A DNA stretch of 64,000 nt from Salinivirga cyanobacteriivorans (GCF_001443605.1 NZ_CP013118.1:504225-568224); one strand, 5' to 3'; positions 1 to 19,335 are shown, counted from the stretch's first letter. Numbers and translations are program-made. Notes: generated by a model not told the origin, from the sequence alone.

Positions 1-1
1 T

Positions 2-553
2 ATGAAAAAGAAGATGAAAAATGAAATCCAAGGACAGATTGATATGTCAGAAATGTCCTCTGGTGAGGATGTTACTGTTCATATTGATACCGACTTGAAA
101 GCAAGGATATATGCTAATATGAATATTGAGCCTCGCCGCTATTTTTCATTGGAAAATCGAAAAATACGCCCCTTTGTTGGAACAGGATTGTCGTATACTT
201 TCTTTTTGGATATGAAAGGCCGGCTTGATACAACCATTACTGTAAACTCTTCAAATATGCAAAGTGGTGGTGGATTATCAGGTGGCGGAAGTGGGTTTTC
301 AAATATGAAAAAACTTGATAATCAAGATATGGATGTAATGGCTTTTCAGAGCTTAGGTGCTTTGTTTTCAACCGGGTTTGAGTACCCTTTAAATAGTCGA
401 GTTCTGTTTAACTCAAAGCTCACATATCACTTGCCATTCAATACCTTCAATCAAAAAAAATCAACCATAAATAGCTTTGATATTCAATTCGGGTTGGTCT
501 TTAAGTTAAAGAGAAAAAAGATAAAGTTCGTTGAGTATATAAGAACTAAATAG
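2..553 (+). CDS. outer-membrane beta-barrel protein, probably 5'-partial
   Basis: The reading frame opens at base 2 and the protein probably continues upstream of the window. The visible 183 residues have alternating aromatic/polar strands typical of Bacteroidota outer-membrane barrels, including a 'PFVGTGLSYTFF' strand and a C-terminal strand 'SFDIQFGLVFKLK'. A Gly/Ser-rich, Met-containing loop lies around residues 85-105. No signal peptide is visible, which fits a missing N-terminus. It lies just upstream of an efflux adaptor gene and may belong to the same transport locus, but it is not recognisably a TolC-type channel. The function is unknown beyond the barrel prediction. Confidence 0.6.
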   Translation: MKKKMKNEIQGQIDMSEMSSGEDVTVHIDTDLKARIYANMNIEPRRYFSLENRKIRPFVGTGLSYTFFLDMKGRLDTTITVNSSNMQSGGGLSGGGSGFSNMKKLDNQDMDVMAFQSLGALFSTGFEYPLNSRVLFNSKLTYHLPFNTFNQKKSTINSFDIQFGLVFKLKRKKIKFVEYIRTK

Positions 554-677
554 ACCATGAAATTTTTCGAATTGCCCGCCTCAAAGTCCGGAGTGTCCGC
601 TTCATGATATTTAATTGCCCTTTTCTCTTCTAAGACGTACATAATGATAGAAATAAAACAACTTAAAATTTATAATA

Positions 678-1793
678 ATGAAGAATTTAGTTTTCAATAA
701 GGCTTTAGTTTTAGTGTTTTCTCTCTTAATCTTTTTTTTCATTTTCTCCGGATGCACAGACCAACGAGAAACTGAAGAGAAAACAGTTCAAAAAATCTAT
801 AGTAGTTTCCTAACGCAAGAAGTAAAGAATAAATCTGTACAAAAGCAGATCCATCTAAGGGGCAAAGCCAATCCCCGCAAAAAAAAAGTAACCATAGTTA
901 GCGAAGTGCAGGGTAAAGTTTTAACTCCCCAAAAACCGCTTAAAGAGGGAGTGTACTTCAATAGGGGCGAGCTTCTTTTACAGGTAGATAATACTGATAG
1001 TAAATTAAATCTTTATGCATCAAAGAGCAGATTTATTGCTGCTATAAATAAGGTTATGTCTACCATCAAACTTGATTATCCAACAGAATACGAGAAATGG
1101 GCAGAATATTTAGATAACTACAAAATAGAGGATGAATTAAAGAAGTTGCCAGAGGTTCAAATCACAGAGTTGCGTAACTATTTGACAGTTAATGGGATTT
1201 TTGATATGTACTATTCTGTTAAAGGCCTGGAAAACCAGTTGAGTAAGTATGATGTTATTGTCCCATTTAATGGAGTTATTACGAAAGCATACATTCAAGC
1301 TGGAGAAATGCTTTCCCCCAATAAACTAATCGCGGAATTAAATTCTACAGACGAGTTTGAGGTTGAAACTTCGGTTTCACTAAAAGACCTAAAGTACCTA
1401 AATGTTGGGAAGAAAATCAAACTGTATAATAGGGATTTGAATAAACATTATCAAGGGAAGATAAAACGTATCAACAGGAAATTGGATAATAATACCCAAA
1501 TGGCAACTGTATACCTCTCATTAAAAAATAGCTCATTAATGGAAGGGATGTTTTTGGAAGGCAATATTGAAACAGAAATAGAACAAAAAGGAGTGCCTAT
1601 TTCCAGAAAGCTCTTGAAACGTAACAATGAAGTATATGTGATCCGAGACTCCATTGTAAGTCTTGTGAAAGTTGACGTGCTCATAAATAGTGATAATGAA
1701 GTGTATGTGTCAGGACTTATGGACTATGATTTATTGATTAATGAAATAGTAAGTACCCCAATAAATGGAATTAAAGCTGTTTCAAAGAACTAA
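678..1793 (+). CDS. efflux RND transporter periplasmic adaptor (membrane fusion lipoprotein)
   Basis: This is a 371-aa lipoprotein: a hydrophobic signal followed by the lipobox 'FSGC' with Cys26. The body has the adaptor pattern: a biotinyl-lipoyl-like half ('VSEVQGKVL'), a helical hairpin around residues 110-190, the second lipoyl half ('VIVPFNGVITKAYIQAGEML'), then a beta-barrel ('VETSVSLKDLKYLNVGKKI') and a membrane-proximal domain. It should link an inner-membrane RND pump to an outer-membrane channel. The pump gene follows 17 bp downstream but is cut short, so this adaptor has probably lost its native partner. Confidence 0.85.
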   Translation: MKNLVFNKALVLVFSLLIFFFIFSGCTDQRETEEKTVQKIYSSFLTQEVKNKSVQKQIHLRGKANPRKKKVTIVSEVQGKVLTPQKPLKEGVYFNRGELLLQVDNTDSKLNLYASKSRFIAAINKVMSTIKLDYPTEYEKWAEYLDNYKIEDELKKLPEVQITELRNYLTVNGIFDMYYSVKGLENQLSKYDVIVPFNGVITKAYIQAGEMLSPNKLIAELNSTDEFEVETSVSLKDLKYLNVGKKIKLYNRDLNKHYQGKIKRINRKLDNNTQMATVYLSLKNSSLMEGMFLEGNIETEIEQKGVPISRKLLKRNNEVYVIRDSIVSLVKVDVLINSDNEVYVSGLMDYDLLINEIVSTPINGIKAVSKN

Positions 1794-1810
1794 TCTCAAA
1801 ATAAGTAACT

Positions 1811-2032
1811 ATGAAGAATGCAATACGATATTTTATAAAAAATCCGGTAGTTGTCAATCTGGTTCTTATACTGATTATTACTATTGGTTTAATGAGTGGT
1901 TCTACAATTAGGTCTACAACAAACCCTGTAACTAAGGATCGCAACATTAGCATAACATCTATTTATTTAGGCGCTTCGCCTCAGGAGGTTGAGAATGGAA
2001 TTGTTGATAAAATAAAGAAAAAAAAAGATTAA
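1811..2032 (+). pseudogene. RND efflux pump (AcrB/MMPL-type) N-terminal fragment
   Basis: Only 73 codons of what should be about 1,000 remain. The first 60 or so residues show the usual start of an inner-membrane RND pump: 'IRYFIKNPVVVNLVLIL' as the first transmembrane helix and 'YLGASPQEVENGIVDKI' as the conserved periplasmic stretch. The protein family's sequence then gives way to a lysine run and a stop, a few bases before the left end of the IS1595-family element. The sequence beyond the IS is not RND, so the rest of the gene was deleted rather than just interrupted. Confidence 0.85.
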
Positions 2033-2069
2033 ATAAATAGAGGTCAGTAGATAAATTCATATATTATAT

Positions 2070-2077
2070 TATCTTTG
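2070..2077 (+). promoter_or_regulatory. candidate -7 box of the IS1595 transposase gene
   Basis: The sequence 'tatctttg' fits the Bacteroidota -7 consensus TAnnTTTG and lies 23 bp before the transposase ATG. No convincing -33 TTG is found at the right spacing, so this is weak. Confidence 0.3.
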
Positions 2078-2100
2078 ATGTCAATAAAATCAATGTTTTC

Positions 2101-2994
2101 ATGGAACTATTCAAAGGACAAAACCTCATAGAGTTTGCTACACGTTTCAATTCTGATGAAAAGTGTATTGAATATTTGGCTCATATAAAATGGCAAGAAG
2201 GCTTTAAATGTGTAAAATGTGGCCACACAGGAAGCCAAATCCGAAAAAATCATTCAAGAACATGTAATAAGTGTAGTCATACAGAATCAGCTACTGCTAA
2301 CACATTATTCCACAAAGTTAAATTTGGTGTCCAAAAAGCCTTTTTTATTTGCTTTGAAATGGCAACTACAACCAAAAGTTTATCGGCAAGCTATGTGTCA
2401 GAGCGCTTTGGAGTAACAGAAAAGACAGCTCGACTTTTTATGCATAAAGTACGAGAAGCGATGAAGTCAAGTGGTAACAATCCAATGAATGGAAATGTGC
2501 ATATTGATGAGTTTGTGATTGGTGGCAAGGAGGAAGGAAAGGTTGGGCGTAGTTATAATGTTAAGAAAAAGAAAGTTATATGTGCAGTAGAGCTCACTGA
2601 TGATGGTAAAGTTAAACGCATGTACTCTATGAAAATAGACAATTATTCATCGAAAGAGCTAAGGAAAATGTTCGATGCGCATATTTCTAAAGAAGCAAAG
2701 ATCACAACAGATCAATGGAAGGGTTATCATCCCCTGATGTCAAAATATGACATAACGCAAATTGAGAGTAATGGTGGCTTAAACTTTAAGGCTTTGCACA
2801 CGATGATCCATCAAGTTAAATCCTGTATAAGAACGACTTATTCATGGGTTAGCGTTCATAACATTAACAGATACCTTGACGAGTTTTGCTACCGAATCAA
2901 TCGTTCTCAAATGAAAAAGAACATTTTCAATAATTTGGTACATCGAATGGTTGAGGCTGATAAAGTAACTCAAGCTGATTTAATATGTAGTTAA
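2101..2994 (+). CDS. IS1595-family transposase
   Basis: The 297-aa protein starts with a zinc ribbon (CxxC pairs in 'CVKCGH' and 'CNKCSH', about residues 38-60) and has the ISXO2-like DDE catalytic domain, with 'HIDEFVIGGKEEGK' and 'TTDQWKGYHPL' holding the first two acidic residues. The length is normal for the family and the frame is intact, so the element may still be active. It fills nearly the whole insertion sequence. Confidence 0.92.
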   Translation: MELFKGQNLIEFATRFNSDEKCIEYLAHIKWQEGFKCVKCGHTGSQIRKNHSRTCNKCSHTESATANTLFHKVKFGVQKAFFICFEMATTTKSLSASYVSERFGVTEKTARLFMHKVREAMKSSGNNPMNGNVHIDEFVIGGKEEGKVGRSYNVKKKKVICAVELTDDGKVKRMYSMKIDNYSSKELRKMFDAHISKEAKITTDQWKGYHPLMSKYDITQIESNGGLNFKALHTMIHQVKSCIRTTYSWVSVHNINRYLDEFCYRINRSQMKKNIFNNLVHRMVEADKVTQADLICS

Positions 2995-3025
2995 ATAACG
3001 ACCTCTATAAAATAAAATAAGCAAC

Positions 3026-3925
3026 ATGTCACAAAGAGAAGTACTAGCAAGATATAATCTGATTATCAAGAAGCTTCGTAAGAATCCTGCAAATTTTGCA
3101 GAGATCGCTGCGTATCTGGCTTTCGAATCAGAGTTGCAGGGATATAATTTTAATGTTTCAAAAAGGACATTTCAAAGAGACCTTGAAGATATTCGGTCAT
3201 TATACAATATTGATATCCAATATAATTTTTCTTCAAGATCATATTTCATTGATTATGAAGAGCAACCCGATGCTAATGAGCGAATTTTAGAAGCATTCGA
3301 CACGTTTAATGCATTGAATCTCACTGACAGATTATCGAATTATATTCATTTTGAAAAGCGGAGGCCGCAAGGGACTGAGAATCTTTATGGTCTATTACAT
3401 GCGATTAAAAACCAGATGCGGATTAATTTCACGTATCAGAAATACTGGGAAGGTAAAATGACTAATCGCCATGCAGAGCCTTATGCGTTAAAAGAATTCA
3501 GAAACAGATGGTATGTCTTGGCAAATGACTTAAAAGATAGGCAGATTAAGAGTTTTGCCCTTGACCGATTAACGGAATTAGAGATAACGAAGAAACAGTT
3601 TCAGTTACCGCATGATTTTGATGTAAATGACCATTATAAATACAGTTTTGGAATTATCAGCCCCAATGCCGATAAACCGCAGGAGGTCATTTTATCTTTC
3701 AATGCTTTTCAAGGAAAATACATCAAGTCTTTGCCATTCCATGAATCACAAGAAATTTTGATTGACAATGAAAAAGAATTACGAATTAAATTGACAATAT
3801 TCATAACACATGATTTTTTTATGGAATTATTATCGTACGGTGAAAATTTGAAAGTGATACAACCTGACAACTTGATAAATGACTTAAAATCGACCTTTCA
3901 AAATGTTCTAAAATTATATAAATGA
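3026..3925 (+). CDS. WYL-domain transcriptional regulator
   Basis: The 299-aa protein has an N-terminal winged helix-turn-helix region (about residues 1-70, 'VSKRTFQRDLEDIRSLYNI') followed by a WYL ligand-sensing domain ('MRINFTYQKYWEGK ... AEPYALKEFRNRWYVLA ... IKSFALDRLTELEIT', about residues 125-195) and a C-terminal WCX-like part. WYL proteins often control defence islands or DNA-damage genes by sensing nucleic acids or nucleotides. Here it is the first gene of the cassette array, and its promoter region abuts the IS1595 right end 16 bp away, so its native upstream region is gone. Whether it controls neighbouring cassettes is unknown. Confidence 0.85.
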   Translation: MSQREVLARYNLIIKKLRKNPANFAEIAAYLAFESELQGYNFNVSKRTFQRDLEDIRSLYNIDIQYNFSSRSYFIDYEEQPDANERILEAFDTFNALNLTDRLSNYIHFEKRRPQGTENLYGLLHAIKNQMRINFTYQKYWEGKMTNRHAEPYALKEFRNRWYVLANDLKDRQIKSFALDRLTELEITKKQFQLPHDFDVNDHYKYSFGIISPNADKPQEVILSFNAFQGKYIKSLPFHESQEILIDNEKELRIKLTIFITHDFFMELLSYGENLKVIQPDNLINDLKSTFQNVLKLYK

Positions 3926-3943
3926 TAGCCAGCCCTTGACAGC

Positions 3944-4005
3944 CACACACATTGCCAAGTCGCTCAAAAAGCCAACAGCACGACCAAAACTTGTCAAAGA
4001 GTGTG
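3944..4005 (+). repeat. structured repeat D, copy 1 (hairpin)
   Basis: A 17-nt left arm (3944-3960) pairs with a right arm (3989-4005) at 14 of 17 positions around a 28-nt loop. Homologous copies lie at 7234-7294 and 12866-12923. The inner stem and loop are similar in sequence in all three copies, while the outer base pairs differ and compensate (here cacac/gtgtg). It lies between the WYL stop codon and the attC-like site of cassette 0. Confidence 0.65.
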
Positions 4006-4072
4006 CCTGTCCGTACGCACGAGATACTACAAAATTGAGTATTAGTTGGCTATTAAAAGATAAAGGCCAGTT

Positions 4073-4254
4073 GGTAACACGGGCGAGTGGGAAAAAGGCG
4101 CATATGGCGGTTTTTCTGTCGGTGCAGATTTATTTCCATCGCCAAATTTGATTTTTTCGTTCAAATTTTAGTAACATTGTAAAAGTAATTTGGCTCAGTG
4201 GAGCTTGATCGGTTTGTACAAGCAACCCTTTCTCCCACTAGCCCAAACGTTAGC
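4073..4254 (+). repeat. attC-like site of cassette 0 (182 bp)
   Basis: Left core 'ggtaac' (4073-4078) and right core 'gttagc' (4249-4254) bound an imperfect palindrome. The left arm 'aacacgggcgagtggg' pairs with the reverse complement of the right arm around 4232-4251. The predicted crossover is between g4249 and t4250. It is longer than most described attC sites. Confidence 0.65.
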
Positions 4255-4312
4255 GTTCATTGTAAAAAAGACCGACAACACAGACTGATTACTAACATTA
4301 AAAATAAAAATC

Positions 4313-4552
4313 ATGCAGACATTAACATTAAGAAAAGAATTATCAGAAGGATTAAAAATAAGATTCATTGATGAATCAGTAGTTCTTTATAATTTGAAAA
4401 ACATTTCAACATCTGACAAGCCAATTGATAATAAAATTAATATCGAAACAAGTAGTCCTGAAATGTTAAACTTGATATTATCAAGAATATACACAACTGG
4501 ATTAAATATTAAAGTTAATAATCCGACTGATACTGTTATTATCTTGGATTAA
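4313..4552 (+). CDS. hypothetical cassette protein (79 aa)
   Basis: I do not recognise this protein. It has no signal peptide or membrane helix; it mixes a charged N-terminal half with a C-terminal beta/alpha stretch ('SPEMLNLILSRIYTTGLNIKV'). It starts 63 bp after the cassette crossover point, a usual position for a cassette gene. Its 3' end overlaps the 3' end of a short convergent frame on the other strand by 14 bp. The predicted start is the only early Met. Confidence 0.5.
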   Translation: MQTLTLRKELSEGLKIRFIDESVVLYNLKNISTSDKPIDNKINIETSSPEMLNLILSRIYTTGLNIKVNNPTDTVIILD

Positions 4553-4700
4553 CCGTAATTTCATTTTTTTCATTGATAGTAATGGTATATTTAATACCAG
4601 ACCTATCAAAAAAATCTTTAACGAATAAAATCATTTCATTTACATTTTCCATAATTTTAAGACGGTTGACCGATATACCGAAAGATTTTAAATTAAACAT
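4539..4700 (-). CDS. small hypothetical protein, convergent (53 aa)
   Basis: This is a possible gene on the opposite strand. The frame extends further upstream, but the Met at 4700 gives a compact protein with a plausible alpha/beta pattern ('NEMILFVKDFFDRSGIKYTITINEK'). The upstream extension is low-complexity Phe/Tyr-rich and looks non-coding. It overlaps the end of the forward 79-aa frame by 14 bp, so the two genes would share 3' ends. Reverse-oriented genes occur in integron cassettes. Coding status is uncertain. Confidence 0.35.
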   Translation of the reverse strand: MFNLKSFGISVNRLKIMENVNEMILFVKDFFDRSGIKYTITINEKNEITVNPR

Positions 4701-4767
4701 TATTATAAAAGTTCTTTGAAAATATTGAAAATACTTGCGTTGGAAGACCACATCAAAATGACAACGT

Positions 4768-4821
4768 AGCAACTAATCACATTAAATATTTTATTGCGTA
4801 ATAATAAATATGTGGGTTAGC
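4768..4821 (+). repeat. possible additional short attC-like palindrome (54 bp)
   Basis: 'agcaac' at 4768-4773 and 'gttagc' at 4816-4821 flank partly complementary AT-rich arms (cacat near 4779 with atgtg near 4810). It would split cassette 1 in two. Its core sequences do not fit the neighbouring sites as well as the four long palindromes do, so it may be a degenerate site or chance. Confidence 0.3.
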
Positions 4822-4857
4822 TGGAAAATAAATGTGTTTTAATCGGAAGCCACAGGA

Positions 4858-5016
4858 ATGGTCGAACCACCGATAAAAAATAATCCAATATTTATGGAAA
4901 TTGTTTTTGTGACAACTGGTTTAATAATATCGGTTGTTCTGATACTCGTAGTATCTAAGTACAAAAAGTTTTCTATCGAAGTAGGCAAATGGTTCAAGCT
5001 AAATGCCGAAAAGTAA
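4858..5016 (+). CDS. small single-span membrane protein (52 aa)
   Basis: The frame starts at ATG 4858, with a second in-frame ATG at 4894 that would give 40 aa. It encodes a short N-terminus, one hydrophobic helix ('VTTGLIISVVLILVVS') and a basic, amphipathic tail ending 'GKWFKLNAEK'. The positive residues after the helix suggest the tail is cytoplasmic. Such tiny membrane proteins are common cassette cargo in integrons, but I know of no specific function. The clear hydrophobic/basic organisation and its place just before an attC-like site support it being real. Confidence 0.5.
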   Translation: MVEPPIKNNPIFMEIVFVTTGLIISVVLILVVSKYKKFSIEVGKWFKLNAEK

Positions 5017-5108
5017 AGACTTTTTGGAACTGGTACTACGGTATCAGTTTTTCAAGTATTGACAATATTTCAAAGAACTAAAAATTTACAAACAATAAAC
5101 AACGAAAC

Positions 5109-5236
5109 GCTAACACGCTATATAAAAAATTTGGGGTTCATTGGTAATTACAACAACATCACTCGCATCAACATCAGTGTATCTTGATAAGATACTGCTC
5201 CGTAATCCCAAACTTTTCATATAGCTATTCGTTGCC
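5109..5236 (+). repeat. attC-like site of cassette 1 (128 bp)
   Basis: Cores 'gctaac' (5109-5114) and 'gttgcc' (5231-5236) end arms that pair imperfectly: 'gctatataaaaaatttggg' on the left with the reverse complement of the stretch 5207-5226 on the right. The size is like that of Vibrio cholerae repeats. The sequence before the left core (aac at 5106) extends complementarity to the cassette start at 4249-4257. Confidence 0.7.
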
Positions 5237-5330
5237 AACTATAATGGGGAACTTCAACCGAATTAATTTCTAATCTAATCTCTTGCTTTTGGTGTGAATT
5301 TGGTGCATATTTACATCAAAACTGTTAATT

Positions 5331-5570
5331 ATGTCTAGACAAAGTATTTCATTCACACAACCAAATGACGATTGGTTAAAAGCTCAAGTTGAAAGCCAAG
5401 AGTATTCAAGCAAGAGCGAATTGATAAATGATTTGATACGACAAGCCAGAAAGCAACAGCGACAAATAGACTGGATAAAGTCAAAATTAGAACGGGCGGA
5501 AAATAGTGGATTTACCAGTGACAGTAAAGAACAGATACTCGCACAATCTAAAAACCAACTTGATGACTAA
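5331..5570 (+). CDS. parD: ParD-family antitoxin (ribbon-helix-helix)
   Basis: The 79-aa protein has an N-terminal ribbon-helix-helix DNA-binding domain ('SISFTQPNDDWLKAQV ... YSSKSELINDLIR', residues 4-42) and a charged C-terminal tail that would wrap the toxin. It should neutralise ParE and repress its own operon. Its last codons overlap the toxin start by 8 bp, the usual translational coupling. It is cargo of cassette 2; toxin-antitoxin pairs are well-known stabilisers of cassette arrays. Confidence 0.85.
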   Translation: MSRQSISFTQPNDDWLKAQVESQEYSSKSELINDLIRQARKQQRQIDWIKSKLERAENSGFTSDSKEQILAQSKNQLDD

Positions 5571-5856
5571 TTACAAATTAAGTAATGTTGCCAAGGAGGA
5601 TTTGATTAGGATTCATCAATTCGGAATTAAACGATTCGGGTTGACTCAAGCTGATAAATATTTTGACACCTTTTTTGACTATTTTGAAATTATAGCGGAC
5701 CGACCATTTGCTTTTGAATCAGTTGACTATATTAAACATGGATACAGACGATGTGTTTGTGGTTCTGACACAATTTATTTCAAAGTAAATGACGACATAG
5801 TTGAAATTATGGCGATAGTAGGTCAACAAGATCTTGACAATGCATTAAATGTTTAA
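5563..5856 (+). CDS. parE: ParE-family toxin
   Basis: The frame is open from 5506, but the ATG at 5563 overlapping the antitoxin end gives the normal 97-aa ParE: 'YKLSNVAKEDLIRIHQFGIKRFG' (helical hairpin), 'RPFAFESVDYIKHGYRRCVCGSDTIYFKVNDDIVEIMAIVGQQD' (the RelE/ParE beta core). ParE toxins poison DNA gyrase. The next attC-like site begins 9 bp after its stop, which is the tight packing expected in a cassette. Confidence 0.85.
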   Translation: MTNYKLSNVAKEDLIRIHQFGIKRFGLTQADKYFDTFFDYFEIIADRPFAFESVDYIKHGYRRCVCGSDTIYFKVNDDIVEIMAIVGQQDLDNALNV

Positions 5857-5865
5857 ATTACAGTT

Positions 5866-6050
5866 GGCAACAGCGGTTCATAAAGCAAAGGCGGTACGTG
5901 CGTTTTTGTGGGTTCGAGATTTTATTTTAACACCACCAAAACTTCGTTTTGACGTTTAAAGATGTACATTTGTAAAACAAAGTTTTGGCTCTGTGGAGTT
6001 TGAACGGTCTTTTCAAGTAAAGCCTTCGCTTCATAACCGCGTACGTTATG
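5866..6050 (+). repeat. attC-like site of cassette 2 (185 bp)
   Basis: Left core 'ggcaac' (5866-5871), right core 'gttatg' (6045-6050). Outer arms 'agcggttcataaagcaaagg' and the reverse complement of 6020-6043 pair; an inner stem is formed by 'ccaaaactt' and 'aagttttgg'. The right part of this site closely resembles the site at 6890-7072. Confidence 0.7.
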
Positions 6051-6234
6051 GAGTATTCTCAAGCTCCCGAATAGATTTATGCAACAATACCTATTTGAAT
6101 TGTGCTCTTTATCTTATTGATGATTTTGAAAATCGATAATAAAAGGTTAAATTGAGAAAGAAAAGTGAAAATTTGGCAATTAGTTTTTGAGTTAATTAGA
6201 ATTTAAGTGAAATATAAACATAAAACAGCAGCAT

Positions 6235-6894
6235 ATGAAAACTTTAGTATTAAGTTCAGTATTGGGGTTGACTATATTTCTATCAACATCACTCCTAGCG
6301 CAACTTCCTTCGATAGATAGTTTGCATATTCTACCTAATAATCCAACAGCTGGAGAACAAACTAGCTTGATTTGTTATACAACTTTTCCCTCTGGTGATT
6401 GTGAATTAAATGATCATACAGTAAATATTTTGGACACAAATATTATTGTAAATTTAAATTTTACTGTAGGAGACTATACAGTAATTTGCAATAGTATAGA
6501 CACGTTGATTATTGGTAATCTAAATGCTAATAACTATATGCTAATTGCGGAATTATCTCAAAATTTAGAGACGACTATTTATGACATAGATACAATTAAC
6601 TTTTCTATTGAAACAGTTGGGATTCTAGAAAATAAAATCGATGAAAACCCCTTTTATATTTATCCCAACCCTTTCACAGATAGAATTTCTATCGAGAGTA
6701 ATAGCGCTTTGAAAAATGTAAGTAAAGTTGAATTGATTTCAGTATACGGGCAAAAAATATATACGAATGATAATATCAATAATATAAAAACAGAAATTGA
6801 TACTAAAAACTTAATAGATGGAATATATTTTTTGATTATCACAAATGAAGAACAAAAATACGGTATAGAAAAAATAGTAAAGAACACTCCATAA
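6235..6894 (+). CDS. T9SS-exported protein with C-terminal sorting domain
   Basis: A 219-aa protein with an N-terminal signal peptide ('LVLSSVLGLTIFLSTSLLA', cleavage near residue 22), a beta-rich middle of about 120 residues that I do not recognise, and a type A C-terminal sorting domain from about residue 140 ('FYIYPNPFTDRISIES ... VELISVYGQKIY ... NLIDGIYFLIITNEEQKYGIEKIVK'). It should cross the inner membrane by Sec and the outer membrane by the type IX system, with the C-terminal domain removed or modified. It is the only gene of cassette 3, and its stop lies inside the left core of the next attC-like site. Confidence 0.8.
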   Translation: MKTLVLSSVLGLTIFLSTSLLAQLPSIDSLHILPNNPTAGEQTSLICYTTFPSGDCELNDHTVNILDTNIIVNLNFTVGDYTVICNSIDTLIIGNLNANNYMLIAELSQNLETTIYDIDTINFSIETVGILENKIDENPFYIYPNPFTDRISIESNSALKNVSKVELISVYGQKIYTNDNINNIKTEIDTKNLIDGIYFLIITNEEQKYGIEKIVKNTP

Positions 6895-7072
6895 CAGCGG
6901 CGTATAAAGCAAAGGCGGCCATTGAGTTTCGTGGGTTTGGAGTTTTAATTTAGCACCGCCAAAACTTCGTTTTGACGGGTAAAGATGTATATTTGTAAAA
7001 CAAAGTTTTGGCTCCATGAAGATTGATTGGTTTTTGCAAGAAAGGCCTTCGCTTCATCGCCACAACGTTAGC
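6890..7072 (+). repeat. attC-like site of cassette 3 (183 bp)
   Basis: Left core 'cataac' (6890-6895), right core 'gttagc' (7067-7072). Outer arms pair as in the previous site ('agcggcgtataaagcaaagg' with the reverse complement of 7044-7066). The apical region again carries 'ccaaaactt' and 'aagttttgg'. Confidence 0.7.
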
Positions 7073-7170
7073 TGCAAGCAAAAAAGACCGAAATCAAACA
7101 TTTGAACCTGAATATAAAAATTGAAAAAACGGATAGAAAACATTAACACTTTGATTGAAGGTTGGTGCAA

Positions 7171-7187
7171 GAAAAAATTAGTTTTTG
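7171..7187 (+). repeat. left inverted repeat around the helicase module
   Basis: 'gaaaaaattagtttttg' here is nearly the reverse complement of 12952-12969. With structured repeat copies just inside each, these frame the two-gene helicase module. Confidence 0.45.
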
Positions 7188-7233
7188 CCCGCCCGCTTCT
7201 GCCCTTCGGGACAGTTGGGGAAGCCCACGCACA

Positions 7234-7294
7234 TTGCACACATTTGCAAATCGCACAGGCTGACCCACAATTCAAAATTTGCAAAAGAGTGCAA
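7234..7294 (+). repeat. structured repeat D, copy 2 (hairpin)
   Basis: Left arm 7234-7251 pairs with right arm 7277-7294 at 16 of 18 positions, with A.A mismatches at the two places also mismatched in copies 1 and 3. The outer pairs are ttgcac/gtgcaa. It ends 36 bp before the helicase start codon and so would be in its leader. Confidence 0.65.
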
Positions 7295-7330
7295 TTTTTG
7301 CTAACCTCGGTGTTACTCAACAAGATTTAG

Positions 7331-10300
7331 ATGAAAGAAATATTAAGAAAATATTGCACTGACGAAATAGGAGAAACTGGATTGTTCTTATTCAATCCAC
7401 CAACAGGAACTGGGAAAACATATAGAGTGCTAGAATTTATTTTCAACAACTATAAAACAATATGTAAAGACGGACGCAAAATATTCTTTATAACTAACTT
7501 AAAGAAGAACCTTCCATATGAAGAACTTAGAGATAATTTCTTTGCGCACAACAAAAAGCTAAATGATTTTGACAAGCATGTTTTATTTATAGATTCGAAT
7601 CAGGAATTTATTCTAAAAAACCTACTTAATGTTGAAAACGAAATAGAAGACTACTTTAAAACTGCGGATTATTATCAATTGATAAAAAACTGTAGACGCA
7701 TTAAAAAGCATGAATCGAATTTAGGCATGCTTGATGTCGTTGATGAATTCAAGAGACAGATTCGAGAAACCTATGAACCAAATTTCAGGAAAAGAATTAC
7801 TGAATACTTACAAAAACACTTTCCAAATAAAAAGGAGCGACTAAAAGCTATTCAACAAAATAAAAAGCTCAATTGGATTGGCAAGCTTTATCCGACTGTT
7901 TATACAGATAAAAAAAAGATTTATTTTCTAAGCATTGATAAATTTTTCGCAAAGAACTCAACATTAATTGAGCCTTCGTATTATTTTCATGATAATGCGA
8001 TATCTAAAAAGGGGCTATTATTCATTGATGAATTTGATTCAACAAAAGATAGCATCTTATCGAATATAATAGACAAAGGAATTAGCCAAAAGGTTGATTT
8101 TATACAAATGTTCAACGGAATACATTTATCTCTTCTCAATAATGTATTTCCTCAGCAAATTATTTCAGAGTCTCAAGAGTGGAAAAGAAAAAAAGAATTA
8201 TTCAAAAGAATTCTTTCCCCACAAGAACAATTAGATTCGTTCAAAAGCAAAGCTGATAAAATCTGTAAAGATTTTAAGCTGAAAACAAGTTACAAAACCG
8301 ACAATTCAGGAATTGAACAAGATTCAAGAAGTTTATTATTCCACGATTTCCGATATCATTCAGTTTTGCAAGGAGACAAGAAATATATTTGCATAGACCA
8401 TAAACCAGAATTGGGTTTAAATCAAATAAAATTTCAAGATTTTAAACCAGCAAATAAATATGGTTCTGTTATCGCTCTATTAAATAGTATAAAAGGTTAT
8501 ATCAATTATTTTCAAAAGGGAATAAAACACCTTGCAACTAATTACCACGATTTAAAGAAAGAAACAAGTATTGACATTGAATATTCTTATGAATCGGCAT
8601 TGCAAACGATTTTGGAAGAATTCTCACTAGAACCAAAACATAAGAGTTTCTTGATTGACAATATACTTTCAGAAAGAAGTTTGCAAAGCTATGATGAAAA
8701 CAAATTAAAATATGATTTAAGTGTTTACCAAAATGGATTTAGATATTATGACTTTGTCGATAGTGAAGAACATGATACTGTAACCAAAACCTTTATATAT
8801 TCATTTCAAAATTCACCTGAGAAATTTATTTTAAAACTGGCTGAAAAAGGGAAAGTGATTGGGATTTCTGCAACTTCAACTCTAGAATCCGTTACTGGAA
8901 ATTTCGACATCAATTACCTTACAAGTCAACTTGGTGAGAAGTTTTATCAAATGACTAATGAAGAAGTTACTCATTTGCGCAAAGAGTTTGACCAACAATT
9001 TCCTAAATATACAGATAAGGTTAAAATAAAATCGGAATGGCTAGAACAGAATAATGAGTCAAATATACAAGATTGGATAAATTTGTTTGGTGATGAAGAC
9101 TTAGCAAATGAAATTTTTAATAAGCTCCATCCAAATCCGTTTTATCGAAATCGGTATTTTAAAGTTGCATATGTATTTAAGCAATTTTTATTAAAAGATG
9201 ATATTCAATCCTTTTTATGTATGTTAAATGCCTTTCCAAAAGCTTACTCACCAGCTTTTGATGAAAATCATTTAATTCAAATATTTGAATATTTAGCAGA
9301 AGTCACGAAAACAAAACATTTGTTCGAAATTGATGGAGTATTTAACATTAGTCGGAGCTATATCATTATTAAGAGCAAAGACTTTGATACGCAAAAAGAA
9401 GGGCTTCTTGAACGACTAGAAAATGGTGAAAAGCTTTTTATTATTTCCACTTATCAGACTTTGGGTGCTGGTCAGAACTTGCAATATAAAGCACCAAAAC
9501 CAGAAAACATGGTTAAATTTTTAAAGAAAGGAGCTTCTGATTGGAATACAAATAATAAAACAGATATTAACGCAATTTATCTTGATGAACCAACCCACTT
9601 ATTAATCAATGCCAATAATAAAGAATTAAAAGAAAATGATTTTGCCAAATACCTCTTTCAACTTGAATTTCTTCAAGAGCATGGAGATATTTCAATGTAT
9701 CATTTAAACCAAGAAGTTAAATTTGCATTTAAGAACTTAATCAGTTCTTTACATACCAAAGGCATTATTCAACGTTCTTTTAAACTAGAAAGTCTTTATA
9801 AAAAGTATAATTACAGCCAGCATGTTTCAAAAATAATCATTCAGGCAATAGGGCGACTTTGTAGGACAAACTTTAAAAGCAAAAACATTTATATCTATGC
9901 TGACAGTAAAGTTTATCCACATCTGCAAACTGTAAATACCGATAGACAGATTTGTTTATGGGAATTTTTGAACCTTAAGAACACCAAGCTTAGTTCTAAT
10001 ATTGAATTAGATAAGGTTGATTCACTTGAAGTTTATCAAAACTCAGCAAATACAATAAGCAGAAAAACAAATACTTTAATAAAAAGATTCCTTGAAACAG
10101 AATGGTCTGTAAAAAGTATGGATGAATGGAAAATGCTTAGGGAAATGACATTATATTTTCCTGTGATGACAGATGATGAAGCAATAAAACATTCTCGATT
10201 TAGGCAATTATATGTACAGCTTCCTCAGACTCATAATTCATATTCTTATGACCAAAAAGGTGATTACGATGAAATTGATATCAACTTTTCAGTAGAACAG

Positions 10301-10831
10301 CCATTTTCAGTATCGGAAGAATCATCAAGATTGGGTAAGTTTATGCAAATACCAGGTGTTAAAGACTTTTTTATTGAGAAAAAATGGGCAACAGAATTTA
10401 AAATTGGACGATATATGTTAACGCCTTCACTTTTTAACAATATCTATAAAGGAGCGTTAGGTGAAGTTGTAGGTAAATACGTTTTTGAAAAACACCTTGA
10501 TATAGAATTGAAAGAAATAGATAGTGAAGGTTGCTTCGAATTTTTTGATTATAAAATCAATGATGATGTTTATGTGGATTTTAAGCATTGGAAAGAATCA
10601 TCCTTTTTCTCAGCAGAAGAAGAGAAGGAAAACATTTATAATAAGTTGAATACATTAGAAGCAGAAAAGGTGTTTATTATTAATATACTATCTGAAACAG
10701 ATTATAAAGTAATTCCATCTAATGACAAGCGAATTATAGAGATACCATTTTTATATAATCTTAATTCTAATGAATTTAATAAGGAAGCGTTTTTAACTAT
10801 TGTGAGTGAACTTGAATATGCAGACAATTAA
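7331..10831 (+). CDS. SF2-type helicase fused to a PD-(D/E)XK-like nuclease (1166 aa)
   Basis: Helicase motif I is 'PPTGTGKT' (residues 23-30), motif II 'DEFD' (233-236), a motif III-like 'ISATST' lies near residue 515, a motif V-like 'TLGAGQNLQ' near 712, and motif VI 'QAIGRLCR' (838-845). The C-terminus looks like a restriction-type nuclease: 'GALGEVVGKYVFEK' (Glu1045), a second acidic strand, and 'VDFKHW' with Asp1083 and Lys1085. It would couple NTP-driven nucleic-acid remodelling with cleavage. The closest architecture I know is the helicase/REase partner in pPIWI-RE operons, but I cannot assign it there. It overlaps the next gene by 14 bp and is carried in a very large gene cassette. 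A defence function is inference. Confidence 0.75.
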   Translation: MKEILRKYCTDEIGETGLFLFNPPTGTGKTYRVLEFIFNNYKTICKDGRKIFFITNLKKNLPYEELRDNFFAHNKKLNDFDKHVLFIDSNQEFILKNLLNVENEIEDYFKTADYYQLIKNCRRIKKHESNLGMLDVVDEFKRQIRETYEPNFRKRITEYLQKHFPNKKERLKAIQQNKKLNWIGKLYPTVYTDKKKIYFLSIDKFFAKNSTLIEPSYYFHDNAISKKGLLFIDEFDSTKDSILSNIIDKGISQKVDFIQMFNGIHLSLLNNVFPQQIISESQEWKRKKELFKRILSPQEQLDSFKSKADKICKDFKLKTSYKTDNSGIEQDSRSLLFHDFRYHSVLQGDKKYICIDHKPELGLNQIKFQDFKPANKYGSVIALLNSIKGYINYFQKGIKHLATNYHDLKKETSIDIEYSYESALQTILEEFSLEPKHKSFLIDNILSERSLQSYDENKLKYDLSVYQNGFRYYDFVDSEEHDTVTKTFIYSFQNSPEKFILKLAEKGKVIGISATSTLESVTGNFDINYLTSQLGEKFYQMTNEEVTHLRKEFDQQFPKYTDKVKIKSEWLEQNNESNIQDWINLFGDEDLANEIFNKLHPNPFYRNRYFKVAYVFKQFLLKDDIQSFLCMLNAFPKAYSPAFDENHLIQIFEYLAEVTKTKHLFEIDGVFNISRSYIIIKSKDFDTQKEGLLERLENGEKLFIISTYQTLGAGQNLQYKAPKPENMVKFLKKGASDWNTNNKTDINAIYLDEPTHLLINANNKELKENDFAKYLFQLEFLQEHGDISMYHLNQEVKFAFKNLISSLHTKGIIQRSFKLESLYKKYNYSQHVSKIIIQAIGRLCRTNFKSKNIYIYADSKVYPHLQTVNTDRQICLWEFLNLKNTKLSSNIELDKVDSLEVYQNSANTISRKTNTLIKRFLETEWSVKSMDEWKMLREMTLYFPVMTDDEAIKHSRFRQLYVQLPQTHNSYSYDQKGDYDEIDINFSVEQPFSVSEESSRLGKFMQIPGVKDFFIEKKWATEFKIGRYMLTPSLFNNIYKGALGEVVGKYVFEKHLDIELKEIDSEGCFEFFDYKINDDVYVDFKHWKESSFFSAEEEKENIYNKLNTLEAEKVFIINILSETDYKVIPSNDKRIIEIPFLYNLNSNEFNKEAFLTIVSELEYADN

Positions 10832-12869
10832 AACTAATAAGATAAAAATTGAATTTTTTATAGATAAAATCCTAACTGATTTTTCAATTTTTCAAATTAC
10901 AACAAGTGATTTCTATATCCCGTTTGGGAGTCTAATCCTCGATGAAACAATAAGTGGTTTAAAAGCATTATCTGTTGTTTTCGAAAAAGGAAATAGCTTC
11001 TTCTGTTTATTTAAAGGTAATAGTATAAAAACTAATCTTATATCTAGTACTATAAAACAATTTGACGGTGGAGATAAATTATCTGTAGAAAAAATTGATA
11101 GTAAAGAAAAGCTTGAAGCTGTTCCAATTCATTTAGTTGCTCAATTGCTAATAAACTCCTTATCATCGCCTAGTAATGATTTGTTGGCTTTTAATAATAT
11201 AGCTGGTTCTTTATTATGTTTAAATAGAAGTTTATTTGTAACTAATCGTTCTGGTGAGAATGAAAAGATAATTAAGATACCTGCCTTAAAATTAAGAATT
11301 GACAAAGAACTATGTTTAAATATTGATGTTAAGACTTTTTCAAGTTTGCTTATTAAGAAAAAGTTAGACATAAAAAAGCCATTGAAAGACTATCCGAAAT
11401 ATATTATTTCTCATTCAACTCAAAAACTTAGAAGGTTATTGCCTGACGAGAAGATTGATGCAGCTAGTATTTTTATTGAAAAACAAGAACCTAAAAAGAA
11501 AACAACTATTGATTTTATAGATTTTTCGGGTAAGGAAAAGTTTGAGGCTTCTAAAATGGGTTTTTTATATTCATTTTTTCAGGATATTCAGAAAAAGCTA
11601 AGTAACTATTTAGATTTGAGTTTTATTGAGGTAAAGCCAAAAGAAAGTATCCGCTATGAGAAAAGGTTGAATATAGATAAAAACACAAAAGTAAATGAAG
11701 CAATAAAAAATACCTCTTTTCACATTGTGGATATGGTCGGTGAAGAAGATTCAGAAGAATTTATTTTAGAAATAAAAAAATCATTAACAACTTTTACTGA
11801 GGCAAGTCGGATATCAATTGGCAAACGTTTAAAAGATGAATGCTTTAATCTTATAGTTATTCATAATTCAGTCTATTATGAGAAATATAACCTAGAAGAC
11901 CCATATAGAAAAGATAAACCTGAAGGTATTGCTTATCAACATATAACTATTGAAGATTTTAAGTATTCTTCTAGAAGTATTATAAACAATATTATTAAAG
12001 AACTTATAATTAAGTCTGATTTAAAAGAAAGAAAGATTCAGATAGTCGATTGGGAAGCCTACCAATTCAATGGTAATTGGAAATTTGGAATCAAAAAGGA
12101 TGATTTGTTTTATTTCTTAGAAGTAAATCCCAACGGTGAAATGAAATTCTCTACTTTAGAAAATAACTTATTTAGTTCCTCCAGTTATACAGAGTATTGC
12201 GACTTATTTGATAACCTCCAAAATGAAAGAAAGGAATTGCAGATTGATGGCATTGTAGTATCTGACAAGGAAGAAATAAATGTCATTCAACAAACTGATT
12301 ATTACACAATACCAGATTTTTTAAGTGTTGGAAATACATTCAAGGAAGCCACACAGCAATTCACTATAAACAAAAAGGAGTTTTTAGATTTATTCGATGA
12401 GTTTTCAAATCAATATGAACACAAAGAATTAGAAACTATTAATAATGAAATAAAAGACGTTGCTTTTTCAACCTTAGATAGAAAACAGATTTTGCAGCTA
12501 ATAACACATCGTACTGTTCGGAAGGAGTTTAACCAATTCTTTTATGAACGAACAGGTAATTTACTGCATTATTACTTTAAAGATGCTTTGACACGATACA
12601 AACTTTTAGATTCAAATCTTGATATAAAATACTTTCAAGAAGGTGAATTTGGATATTATTTTGTTGGTACAAAAGGAGAAGGAATTCAATCCAATTTTCC
12701 AAGAGCTTCAAAGATTAGGAAAGTTATACCATATAATTCAGCTCCTATTCTGTTTGATAAGTTATTACCTACTTTGAATGTTGATTTTGTAAAGCATGAG
12801 AACATAACAGTGATTCCTTTTCCATTTAAATATTTAAGAGAGTATGTTAATCAAACCCACACAGCCTAG
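10818..12869 (+). CDS. uncharacterised partner protein of the helicase-nuclease (683 aa)
   Basis: I do not recognise this protein. ATG 10818 is chosen over an upstream GTG at 10806; either way it overlaps the helicase stop and is translationally coupled. It has no signal peptide or membrane segment. Residues 340-405 ('FNLIVIHNSVYYEKYN', then 'YQHITIEDF' and 'IIKELIIKSD') recall the MID/PIWI junction of Argonaute-like proteins, where a Q-containing strand is followed by a helix with a conserved Lys. The C-terminus ('NSAPILFDKL ... VIPFPFKYLREY') could also fit a PIWI end. No DED(X) set is obvious, so any PIWI-like fold would be very divergent. The last base of the stop lies inside structured repeat copy 3. 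Confidence 0.55.
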   Translation: MQTIKTNKIKIEFFIDKILTDFSIFQITTSDFYIPFGSLILDETISGLKALSVVFEKGNSFFCLFKGNSIKTNLISSTIKQFDGGDKLSVEKIDSKEKLEAVPIHLVAQLLINSLSSPSNDLLAFNNIAGSLLCLNRSLFVTNRSGENEKIIKIPALKLRIDKELCLNIDVKTFSSLLIKKKLDIKKPLKDYPKYIISHSTQKLRRLLPDEKIDAASIFIEKQEPKKKTTIDFIDFSGKEKFEASKMGFLYSFFQDIQKKLSNYLDLSFIEVKPKESIRYEKRLNIDKNTKVNEAIKNTSFHIVDMVGEEDSEEFILEIKKSLTTFTEASRISIGKRLKDECFNLIVIHNSVYYEKYNLEDPYRKDKPEGIAYQHITIEDFKYSSRSIINNIIKELIIKSDLKERKIQIVDWEAYQFNGNWKFGIKKDDLFYFLEVNPNGEMKFSTLENNLFSSSSYTEYCDLFDNLQNERKELQIDGIVVSDKEEINVIQQTDYYTIPDFLSVGNTFKEATQQFTINKKEFLDLFDEFSNQYEHKELETINNEIKDVAFSTLDRKQILQLITHRTVRKEFNQFFYERTGNLLHYYFKDALTRYKLLDSNLDIKYFQEGEFGYYFVGTKGEGIQSNFPRASKIRKVIPYNSAPILFDKLLPTLNVDFVKHENITVIPFPFKYLREYVNQTHTA

Positions 12870-12923
12870 CACATTTGCAATTCGCACGAGCCAACCCACG
12901 ACCAAAAATAGCAAAAGAGCTAG
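12866..12923 (+). repeat. structured repeat D, copy 3 (hairpin)
   Basis: Left arm 12866-12882 pairs with right arm 12907-12923 at 14 of 17 positions; outer pairs are ctagc/gctag. The loop motif 'gccaacccacgaccaaaa' resembles copies 1 and 2. It begins at the stop codon of the helicase partner gene. Confidence 0.65.
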
Positions 12924-12951
12924 TCTGCCTGCCACCGCTTTTTTGCCAACC

Positions 12952-12969
12952 CAAAAAACTAATTTTTTC
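12952..12969 (+). repeat. right inverted repeat around the helicase module
   Basis: 'caaaaaactaattttttc' is almost the reverse complement of 7171-7187, so the helicase module (about 5.8 kb) is enclosed by a short inverted repeat. Confidence 0.45.
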
Positions 12970-13051
12970 GGGAACAGCAGTGCTTCGATTGAGCGGAATT
13001 ATGATTGCAAAAGATTGATAATTAGTTGATAGAGAATCAATGCCAGCAGCT

Positions 13052-13102
13052 AATCGAGTAGATGGCCGGTGAGCTAAAACAGCCCACCGGAGCACCTCTC
13101 AC
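13052..13102 (-). ncRNA. group II intron domain VI
   Basis: The minus strand contains a hairpin with arms 'ccggtgggct' and 'agctcaccgg' around 'gtttt', followed by the conserved-looking tail 'ccatctactcgatt' up to the 3' splice region. The position just after domain V and just before the 3' exon supports the call. Confidence 0.65.
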
Positions 13103-13125
13103 AGTTCTGCTGAGCCTGTCGAAGT

Positions 13126-13158
13126 ACCACCGTACGTACGGATCACGTATACGGCGGT
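13126..13158 (-). ncRNA. group II intron domain V (catalytic hairpin)
   Basis: On the minus strand 33 nt fold as a long hairpin, with 'accgccgta' pairing with 'tacggtggt' and an upper stem of 'tacg' and 'cgta' around 'gatc'. The RT stop codon (13143-13145) lies within it, as in introns whose maturase runs into domain V. Confidence 0.7.
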
Positions 13159-14331
13159 TCTCTAAACCATGGGAACCGAGGACGAAGGACGAGTTCAGCG
13201 AAGCTAAACAGCGTGTAGATACCCGAAGTTTTGGAGATCGTTTTAAACATTTCTGTTAAAGAGACATAACCGCGTTTCTTTAAACGGGTTTTAGTGATGG
13301 TGGTGCCCAATATTGGGCTTTGAGCGACTGCCCAACCTCCCATCCTGGTGCGGCTCCATGCATAAGCATGGTCTGGATCGACGCCCAATCGGAGAAGGCT
13401 CCGCCTTTTCTTTTCGGGCTTTTTCCAGTGATGCCAGATGCAGTAACGTAAGCGGTTACGGAGCCATCCGTCTAATTCCTCCAAATTCACTTTGATATTG
13501 GCATATTTAAAAGCGTTGAGCCATCCACGTTGGATTTCTTTCAGCTTTGCAATACGCTCATCAAAGCTCATTGGTTTGGTCTTTCGGGTTACATCTTTCA
13601 ACTTGGCTTTGAACGTTTTCCATCTCTTCCGGGTCACTACTAATTGGTATTTGCCCTTTACTCCTTTTTGATATACCGGAGCAAATCCAAATCCCAATAT
13701 CTGGAATTGTGTAGGCCGTCGGATGCCGCTTTTCTCCCGGTTAATCGGAAGTTTTAACTTATCCCTCAGGTAAAGGTAAACCTGATTGCCTGCTCTCCTT
13801 GCTTCTGATTTTGTTTTGCAGTAAATGCTAAAATCATCGGCATAGCGGACAAATCTTAGCCCTAGACGCTCCATTTCTGTATCTAACTCATGTAAGATGA
13901 TGTTGGACAGTAACGGGCTAATCGGACTGCCTTGCGGTACTCCTTTCCTGCGTTTTATGAGTTTACCATCTTTTTCGAGTGGTGCTCTCAACCAACGCCT
14001 GATAAGACTCATGGTGGCTTTACACTTAACCTTCCGGTAGAGCAATTGTAAAAGCAGCACATGATCGACATTGTCGAAAAACTGTTTGAGATCGATTTCA
14101 ACAATGTGTTGGTAGCCTGAATTGATGTAGTGCAATGATTTTCCTACGGCCTGATGCGTGTTCCGTTCCGGACGAAACCCATAACTATAGTTTGAAAATT
14201 CCTGTTCGTAGCGCAACATTACCACACGTAGAACTGCCTGTTGTAGCGTCCGGTCTACTGCGGTAGGGATACCCAGAAGGCGCATTTTACCTCCTCCCTT
14301 GGGTATCTCTTTGCCCCTAATCGGTTGAGCG
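13143..14331 (-). pseudogene. ltrA: group II intron reverse transcriptase/maturase, N-terminally truncated
   Basis: The largest Met-started frame (380 aa) begins at 14285, but in-frame coding continues upstream to 14331 ('QPIRGKEIPKGGGK'), so the Met is internal. RT blocks are intact: 'VEIDLKQFFDNVDH', 'GVPQGSPISPLLSNI', 'RYADDFSIYC' (catalytic YADD) and the maturase X-domain ('RGWLNAFKYAN'). RT blocks 0 and 1 are missing, cut exactly where the IS21 inverted end starts. The element cannot move on its own but the remaining RT could be expressed. Confidence 0.88.
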
Positions 14332-14401
14332 TGAAAATAGCAAATTTAAAACCAACAAATTTTCGTAAAAATAAACCATCATTTTACGGTAAAAAATATA
14401 T

Positions 14402-14460
14402 TAATCAACGCTCTGATTGTTGAGGGCGCGTAGCGACCGAAGCAATCAGAGCGTTGATTA
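14402..14460. terminator. perfect 18-bp hairpin at the istB end of IS21-A
   Basis: 14402-14419 and 14443-14460 are perfect inverted repeats around a 23-nt loop containing 'gcgtagcgac'. It overlaps the istB stop codon. It may be a bidirectional terminator or protect against read-through; it lacks a clear T-tract. A similar hairpin sits at the same place in the second IS21. Confidence 0.45.
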
Positions 14461-15207
14461 CTGCTCGAAGATAGTTTTTCTGTTTTCCATTCTGTAACTT
14501 TTCCCAGTCAGCTTTACTACTTCACATTTAAATAATAGTCTGTCCAGCAAAGCTGTTGCCAGTACTTCATCATCGAGCATTTCTGCCCATTGCTGAGGGG
14601 ATTTATTTGTTGTGATAATTACAGATGTTTGTTCATGCAAATGATTTATGAGATTGAAAAAAGCGACAGCTTCATGTTTCTTGATAGGAAACAGCATTAT
14701 GTCGTCTATTGCCACTAAATGAGCCTTTAAAAGACGGTTGTAGGTATTTAGTGCGGTAGAAGTCATTTCTTTCATTTTTAGTACGGTTACTAGTTCCTCC
14801 ATGGTGATGAAGTATGCTTTATGTCCAGATTTTACGGCATCGTTAACCAGACCTGCGGCAACATATGTTTTTCCTGTTCCTGAAGGTCCCATGAGTATCA
14901 AATTGTAATTTTGTTCCAGCCATAATAATTCCCGTAATTGTTTTAATTGGGGGACAGACATACCGTTTGCCATATTAAAATCATACTTGTCAAGATTGTG
15001 ATCTTTAGGTAGCCGGGCTAATTTCAATCTCCTTTCAAGATCTGTTTTCCTTCTGTGTTGCACTTCTCTTTGTAAGAGCAGTAATGCAAATTCCTGGTAA
15101 GAAGGTTTGTCTATCTGTGCCTGGTGAAGCACTACTTCCGGTTCGTTCTTTAACTTTGTTAGCCGTAAAATATCGGCATAGTTTTTAATTTGATCTAATA
15201 CTTTCAT
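14458..15207 (-). CDS. istB: IS21 helper ATPase IstB
   Basis: The 249-aa AAA+ protein has Walker A 'GPSGTGKT' (about residues 105-112), Walker B 'LVAIDDIM' and the sensor region 'VIITTNKSPQQW'. IstB organises the target complex and stimulates the IstA transposase. It lies 3 bp downstream of istA in the same direction. Length and motifs are complete, so the element looks functional. Confidence 0.93.
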   Translation of the reverse strand: MKVLDQIKNYADILRLTKLKNEPEVVLHQAQIDKPSYQEFALLLLQREVQHRRKTDLERRLKLARLPKDHNLDKYDFNMANGMSVPQLKQLRELLWLEQNYNLILMGPSGTGKTYVAAGLVNDAVKSGHKAYFITMEELVTVLKMKEMTSTALNTYNRLLKAHLVAIDDIMLFPIKKHEAVAFFNLINHLHEQTSVIITTNKSPQQWAEMLDDEVLATALLDRLLFKCEVVKLTGKSYRMENRKTIFEQ

Positions 15208-15210
15208 TTT

Positions 15211-16770: not shown

Positions 16771-16892
16771 AGCCTTCTTTTTTGTGTTTTGCAACTTAAA
16801 GATGAAGGCTATTTTTATTTTCGCAAGTGATGATTTTCAATTGCGAAAATTTGTTGGTGCAAATTTTCTAATTACAGAACCCTGTCAATTGT

Positions 16893-16996
16893 CGGTAAAC
16901 CCTCAAGCGGTCGCAGACCCTTGAAGCGGTGGGTTGTACCGACGCGTACTAACCGTTCGAAGGGTTTCCGCTGCGCTCCAACCGCTTCGAGGGTTA
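16893..16996. repeat. GC-rich intergenic repeat, copy 1
   Basis: Short interleaved direct and inverted motifs ('acccttgaagcggt', 'accgcttcgagggtt', 'tttccgctgcgctcc') form hairpins. The same module occurs at about 17746-17882 and 18069-18165. Base composition is much richer in GC than the surrounding genes. No gene is visible. Confidence 0.6.
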
Positions 16997-17060
16997 GGAT
17001 ATTCCGCCGATGGTATGGTTTTTATCATTTATCAACGTTGATGGCCAGCACAGCTGTGTC

Positions 17061-17587: not shown

Positions 17588-17689
17588 TTTTAAAGTTTTA
17601 AGGTTTATTCAAATATAACGAATTTGTTCGGCTTAACGTTCCGTTTTTTGTTGTTTCGTTTTTACGAGCATTCAAAATATGCATGAGTT

Positions 17690-19333: not shown

Positions 19334-19335
19334 GG

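Follow-up and report, generated by a model that had tools for sequence, protein, structure and literature searches.

The window analysed here, a stretch of 64,000 nucleotides (bases 504225-568224 of the closed 4.81 Mb genome of Salinivirga cyanobacteriivorans), most probably carries the far end of a sedentary chromosomal integron run by a tyrosine recombinase which lacks the I2 insert of the canonical integron integrases IntI; from sequence comparisons we give this reading a probability of about 0.93. A sequence-only reading of the window had proposed an integron-type cassette array between positions 4073 and 13053, marked by four long palindromes. The four sites are confirmed, but the array begins 25 kb to the left of the window and spans about 38 kb, the window's palindromes forming its distal part. 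The integron character of the array is borne out: an integrase gene, an attI site, a chain of attC sites, boundaries of the circular-cassette type and duplicates breaking exactly at G^TT are all present.

The integrase gene (genome 477547-478989, 481 amino acids, catalytic R-K-H-R-H-Y set intact) adjoins attI, as the recombinase gene of an integron does: the attI crossover GTTGGCAAC is found at 479076, 86 bp past the stop codon. After attI come about 11 cassette segments, in one direction, which extend up to window position 13053. Most of them have an attC site, measured here from AAC to GTT, and the GTT of the successive sites fall at genome positions 480605, 481507, 485648, 488205, 491626, 492607, 508473, 509455, 510269 and 511291. 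Nearly all of these segments open with the reverse complement of their own end, which is the complementarity of 5' and 3' ends that characterises integron cassettes, and at most steps 9 or 10 positions out of 10 agree. The exception is segment 485648-488205, whose end is unlike its start and which contains an IS110 element; in the 15.9 kb step 492607-508473 the ends match and several insertion sequences lie inside. Within the window the boundary pairs are exact, as had been claimed (GTTAGCGTT/AACGCTAAC, GTTGCCAACT/AGTTGGCAAC, GTTATGGAGT/ACTCCATAAC and TTAGCTGC/GCAGCTAA, the last one ending at 13053), and the match does follow the cassette, boundary sequences varying among cassettes and agreeing within each. 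The palindromes, reported as 182, 128, 185 and 183 bp long, are attC sites of 176, 122, 179 and 177 bp with a few flanking bases. The complementarity is kept upstream of the window, in other copies and in further clusters of the same chromosome: integrase-less groups of attC sites were found at 3.86-3.89 Mb, 4.60-4.61 Mb, 0.93-0.94 Mb and about 4.44 Mb (covariance model R1, described below), with matches of 8-10 out of 10 at most of their junctions.

This boundary match is not due to chance. We selected attC sites by their inner stem alone before comparing boundaries, and 45 of the 70 adjacent site pairs from Salinivirga and related genomes match at five or more of the six free boundary positions, against a mean of 3.2 pairs and a maximum of 10 when partners were shuffled (2000 shuffles). 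A covariance model, a check which the sequence-only reading had itself suggested, gave a concordant answer: R1, trained on 40 attC sites of other genomes with Salinivirga excluded, matches 25 sites in the Salinivirga genome, all four window sites among them. The attC sites fall into size classes near 60, 122-125 and 175-190 bp, and what had been called over-long sites are a real sub-class of attC. A generic inverted-repeat search did not pick up the attC sites, because they are imperfect, and an Rfam search of the window region gave no match.

Comparative data also point to cassettes moving as units between sites and genomes. A 957 bp cassette is present in two copies in the Salinivirga genome, with 99.7% identity and both breaks at G^TT; a 1325 bp cassette is likewise duplicated (99.5%), and two loci (L054 and L071) share the same first-cassette start. 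Cassette content varies among relatives, so the fixed gene order that was to speak against an array was not encountered.

We searched the genome for an integron integrase, as had been advised. The array does have an integrase gene and an attI at its head, but the enzyme is without the IntI-specific insert and is not an IntI by the usual definition. The search returned sub-threshold matches only, the best one at 478174-478980 on the + strand; nothing in the closed genome exceeds the TIGR02249 cut-off, the integrase scoring 189 bits versus 265. Catalytic residues are invariant across the family, the spacing from GKGxKxR to HxLRH being 58 residues versus 100 in canonical IntI. Residues 212-253 of VchIntIA (2a3v), that is, the 42-residue I2 insert, are unmatched when the integrase is aligned to that structure, and I2 is also absent in the AlphaFold2 (AF2) model. 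In the tree, the canonical IntI clade has a support of 100/100 and the insert-less family falls outside it; forcing the two into one clade is weakly rejected (p-AU 0.034), while monophyly of the insert-less family is not rejected (p 0.279). By these comparisons we classify the integrase in a distinct family outside IntI, its closest named relatives being those of Rufibacter and Adhaeribacter. The best PDB match of the catalytic part is 4a8e. Array-linked integrases have extra residues ahead of this core, and the predicted model of the Rufibacter enzyme displays repeated small alpha/beta domains at the N terminus. Taken alone, this N-terminal domain has as its top Foldseek match the HARP substrate-recognition domain of SMARCAL1 (4o66, probability 0.97, E 0.012), and Pfam HARP (PF07443) weakly matches two members, below its cut-off (E 0.013 and 0.029). 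These two weak signals are of different kinds and agree, which makes a HARP-like nature of the predicted domains a lead; we suggest, with low confidence, that they help to bind the folded single-stranded attC hairpin. We rejected as array integrase the paired tyrosine recombinases at genome 109-303 kb, which are repeated units far off with low TIGR02249 scores. These recombinases belong to a multi-copy mobile element of some ten near-identical units, in every one of which a pair of them accompanies an AAA-type open reading frame.

The arrangement recurs across Bacteroidota. Under strict thresholds, 63 of the 295 genomes sampled from the order, and 55 of the 395 from the class, have a relative of the integrase. 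Many contigs end directly after the integrase gene, as they would if repeats caused the breaks. One genome (G069) has 16 consecutive attC sites with 8-10 matches out of 10 at every junction. We also used integrase similarity to collect 80 loci of named genomes. Of the 71 R1 matches in them, 68 are downstream of the integrase and share its orientation, and loci from other phyla have none. Among the named hosts are Arundinibacter roseus, Seonamhaeicola aphaedonensis, Winogradskyella ursingii, Flavobacterium aciduliphilum, Algoriphagus ornithinivorans and Algibacter onchidii. The end of the first cassette matches attI perfectly (6/6) in 33 of 50 loci, the shuffled null having a mean of 1.0 and a maximum of 5, and attI sites tend to carry an inverted repeat (p 3e-9), which in many loci stops about 4-7 bp short of the crossover. 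Four genomes without a close relative of the integrase have no attC sites. A chromosome which could have served as an integrase-less counter-example (G404, 17 matches to the attC model) was rejected as such, since a relaxed search found an integrase with three sites directly downstream; its other sites are scattered singly. The sequence directly shows the architecture of these loci and how it recurs, together with the breakpoints and the rule at the boundaries. Outside Bacteroidota we noticed, in a Chitinivibrionales metagenome-assembled genome (L217), a possible attI/attC pair with a 5/6 boundary match. Versions with attC sites are also borne by plasmids of Chryseobacterium sp. SNU WT5 (L248) and Rufibacter tibetensis (plasmid 1, L249); we take these two for mobile integrons of the insert-less type.

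The attC sites themselves indicate which strand is folded. Compensatory changes are seen in 16 of 20 stem pairs of the R1 alignment. The paired arms carry top-strand A·C mismatches at fixed positions, chiefly 10 and 15 bases past AAC, with a strong asymmetry (A·C 101 versus C·A 6); on the bottom strand these become G·T wobbles, and the bottom strand is the more stable fold in 48 of 57 sites (p=1.7e-8). Pair statistics, stability and covariation thus all agree with an AAC...GTT core and bottom-strand folding, as in integrons. As to extrahelical bases, most sites show a G·T wobble at fixed positions and the GCGGTCATA sub-class has one bulged bottom-strand G. Strand choice thus appears to be encoded, mostly by other means than classical bulged bases.

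Group II introns single out the same strand. IIC-attC introns are known to insert in the bottom strand of attC at TTGT/T, opposite to the cassettes (PMC7923331). At the last site of the array, which had been placed at 13053, the boundary pair is exact but the site is interrupted: the R'' box of attC11 (13046..13053, + strand) is broken within its AAC core, and a partial group IIC-attC-type intron follows in the attC11 bottom strand (13054..14333, minus strand; reverse transcriptase at 13143-14285 with RVT_1 and GIIM domains), so placed as introns of this type are. An IS21-family element (14334-16814; a second one lies at 18575-20901) cuts the intron short at about 14333. Stretches 97.9-98.2% identical to it occur elsewhere in the genome, and RF02001 is found in those copies. 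A full copy (L162:2605-4656) sits within an attC core on the bottom strand, with the junction ...CTGT/TGTG; together with L163 and window 13054-14333 it makes up a near-identical intron family in attC sites across the genome.

These observations bear on a reading in which the system would be integron-like but would act on double-stranded sites in the manner of Xer and dif, the fold of attC remaining unused. Such a reading draws on the Xer-like catalytic part of the integrase and on the attI inverted repeat, whose position shortly before GTT resembles a normal double-stranded core site. It does not explain why the hairpin is maintained by compensatory changes, why the mismatch asymmetry favours bottom-strand folding and why the introns choose the bottom-strand core; we consider it improbable. 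Another possibility is that an ordinary IntI with I2, acting from elsewhere or since lost, built the array and that the insert-less recombinase is a bystander. The attC sites do broadly resemble known ones, and canonical IntI is common in the other classes of the phylum. In this class, however, it occurs in one sampled genome only, which has none of these attC sites; the search of the closed genome likewise speaks against it, and it is the insert-less integrase which heads the array, with a matching attI in most loci compared. Hence we judge this explanation very unlikely. Finally, the idea that the palindromes are dispersed REP- or MITE-like repeats or terminators, their boundary match arising by coincidence or homogenisation, can appeal to the inner hairpins common to the sites and to genomes with many scattered sites such as G404, but we give it next to no credence, as it is contradicted by the shuffle tests, by boundaries which vary among cassettes yet match within each, by the strongly one-sided position of sites downstream of the integrase, and by the integrase and three adjacent sites of G404 itself.

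Several facts weigh against an integron driven by the insert-less enzyme. A perfect match between attI and the first cassette is absent in 17 of the 50 loci (missed sites, contig breaks or real exceptions), sites lie upstream of the integrase in two loci (L182 and L213), and in at least one host with many sites (G069) the integrase is truncated. Canonical IntI uses the I2 insert to hold the extrahelical bases of attC. The insert has been described as unique to integron integrases and needed for function (PMC4792948), and IntI is reported to need this extra domain for activity (PMC4792948 and work cited there; PMC8138268); an enzyme without it could therefore be inactive on attC or use another route. 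In the mechanism which we favour, we infer that the cassettes would circulate as circles, that the integrase would join the folded bottom strand of attC, cut between G and TT, either to attI in its double-stranded form or to a second attC, with new cassettes entering at attI, and that the N-terminal domains may take part. One may go further and imagine a second kind of integron that evolved separately, with a Xer-like recombinase which never had I2 and which would recognise folded single-stranded attC through hairpins marked by G.T pairs and through HARP-like domains that anneal strands or bind junctions, serving as the main integron platform of Bacteroidia and as the original capture system of tet(X); we put this forward tentatively, the odds being somewhat against it.

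The link with the tigecycline-resistance gene tet(X) comes from Acinetobacter plasmids. The 'xerD' ahead of tet(X3) on these plasmids is a truncated member of the family, whose 221 amino acids share 54.5% identity with the C-terminal part. Genome G524, from the class to which Salinivirga belongs, has a tet(X) with 86% protein identity as a regular cassette, GTTATGTGCC...GGCACATAAC, with an attC after it. Plasmid and cassette DNA are identical over at least 200 bp from exactly G^TT and unrelated before it. The plasmid attI has the inverted repeat of the family, and the attC 3' of tet(X3) is degraded on the plasmid. To judge from loci L250 (G524:C2:42708-43871) and L246 (NZ_CP041297.1), tet(X) is a cassette of the insert-less integron system, and on Acinetobacter plasmids tet(X3) occupies the attI of a family member that is truncated; this system appears to have delivered tet(X). 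The xerD(tnpF)-tet(X3)-res-ISCR2 module of Acinetobacter corresponds to this arrangement, but the papers on it describe a module mobilised by ISCR2 (PMC8635130, PMC7722449); in the text searched of two papers on the origin of tet(X), which trace the gene to Flavobacteriaceae or analyse the module, integrons and attC go unmentioned. In G524 the cassette after tet(X) begins, as seen by eye, with an SMR-efflux-like gene. Relatives of tet(X) at 58-64% identity (L251-L254) were rejected as cassettes, being outside arrays.

All cassettes and attC sites of the window lie on the + strand. The 3' part of cassette C7 occupies window 1..4249 (the whole cassette, genome 492607-508473, begins left of the window), with an HlyD-like gene, an RND gene cut by an IS1595 element, and a WYL regulator at 3026-3925 (Pfam). 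The regulator had been counted as cargo; it does lie in a segment with matching ends, complementary at 9 of 10 positions (GTTACCAAC at its start, genome 492607, and GTTGGTAAC at its end, window 4070-4078), but this segment is 15.9 kb long and has gathered several insertion sequences. Its site attC7 (4076..4251, 176 bp, long class with an inner hairpin) was recognised by stem and boundaries (R1 E=0.0049). Cassette C8 (4250..5231) has a small orphan gene at 4313-4552, and attC8 (5112..5233, 122 bp) is matched by R1 at E=7.6e-18. Cassette C9 (5232..6045; ends 10/10 complementary) encodes a ParDE toxin-antitoxin (5331-5570 and 5563-5856; Pfam ParE 7.6e-9, ParD 5.4e-4, slightly under cut-off) and is followed by attC9 (5869..6047, 179 bp, long class, E=0.0003). 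Cassette C10 (6046..7067) encodes a secreted protein (6235-6894) with a type IX secretion tail (Pfam Por_Secre_tail 4.5e-12), and has attC10 (6893..7069, 177 bp, long class, E=0.00017). Together with the Rufibacter and Adhaeribacter relatives of the integrase, this tail places the host in Bacteroidota. Cassette C11 (7068..13053) carries DdmD (7331-10831; E=4.9e-59 to 9ix4, PADLOC DdmD 1.5e-39) and DdmE (10818-12869; E=7.1e-12 to 9iw3), a helicase-nuclease beside an Argonaute-like protein as in DdmDE systems. This plasmid-defence pair (7331-12869) thus occupies one 6 kb cassette, and does so in a phylum far removed from Vibrio. Array cassettes encode a PDC-S18 candidate defence protein, a restriction-modification pair, HigBA, McrBC, an Abi-like protein, ParDE and DdmDE; the cargo is largely anti-phage or anti-plasmid. 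Further on, window 16900-18200 contains imperfect interspersed repeats of the CCCTTCAAGCGGTCGCAGACCCTTGAAGCGG type, with more copies near genome 451-457 kb.

Like this system, the sedentary chromosomal integrons of Vibrio and Xanthomonas have an attI beside the integrase, hairpin attC sites whose cores are AAC and GTT, complementary cassette boundaries, a single cassette direction, further clusters in the genome that have no integrase, cargo of defence and toxin-antitoxin genes, and group IIC-attC introns. They differ in that the integrase here is without I2, outside the IntI clade, endowed with N-terminal domains which may be HARP-like, and pointing towards the array, in the inverted repeat near attI, and in a strand asymmetry made mainly of A·C mismatches. 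The 'reverse' integrons of Treponema also have an integrase transcribed towards attI, in the direction of the cassettes, but their enzymes are described as intI, unlike the Salinivirga enzyme, which has no IntI insert (PMC3607928). With the archaeal and bacterial Xer recombinases (XerA, XerC, XerD) the catalytic core is shared; here there are N-terminal domains, and an attI and a cassette array downstream instead of single dif sites.

Surveys which define integrons by the IntI-specific domain find almost none in Bacteroidetes, and IntegronFinder 2.0 has previous In0 hits together with a single complete integron, that of Salinibacter (PMC9024848). About one in five genomes sampled from one order nevertheless has the insert-less integrase, and many of these have arrays wherever the assembly allows. 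It can now be tested whether attC recombination truly depends on I2, and by what route Xer enzymes gave rise to integrons. For tet(X), a mechanism of exit from Bacteroidota would be provided, as a cassette at attI later carried by ISCR2. A large cassette pool, rich in phage- and plasmid-defence genes and including DdmDE as a single cassette, would be added to those already known.
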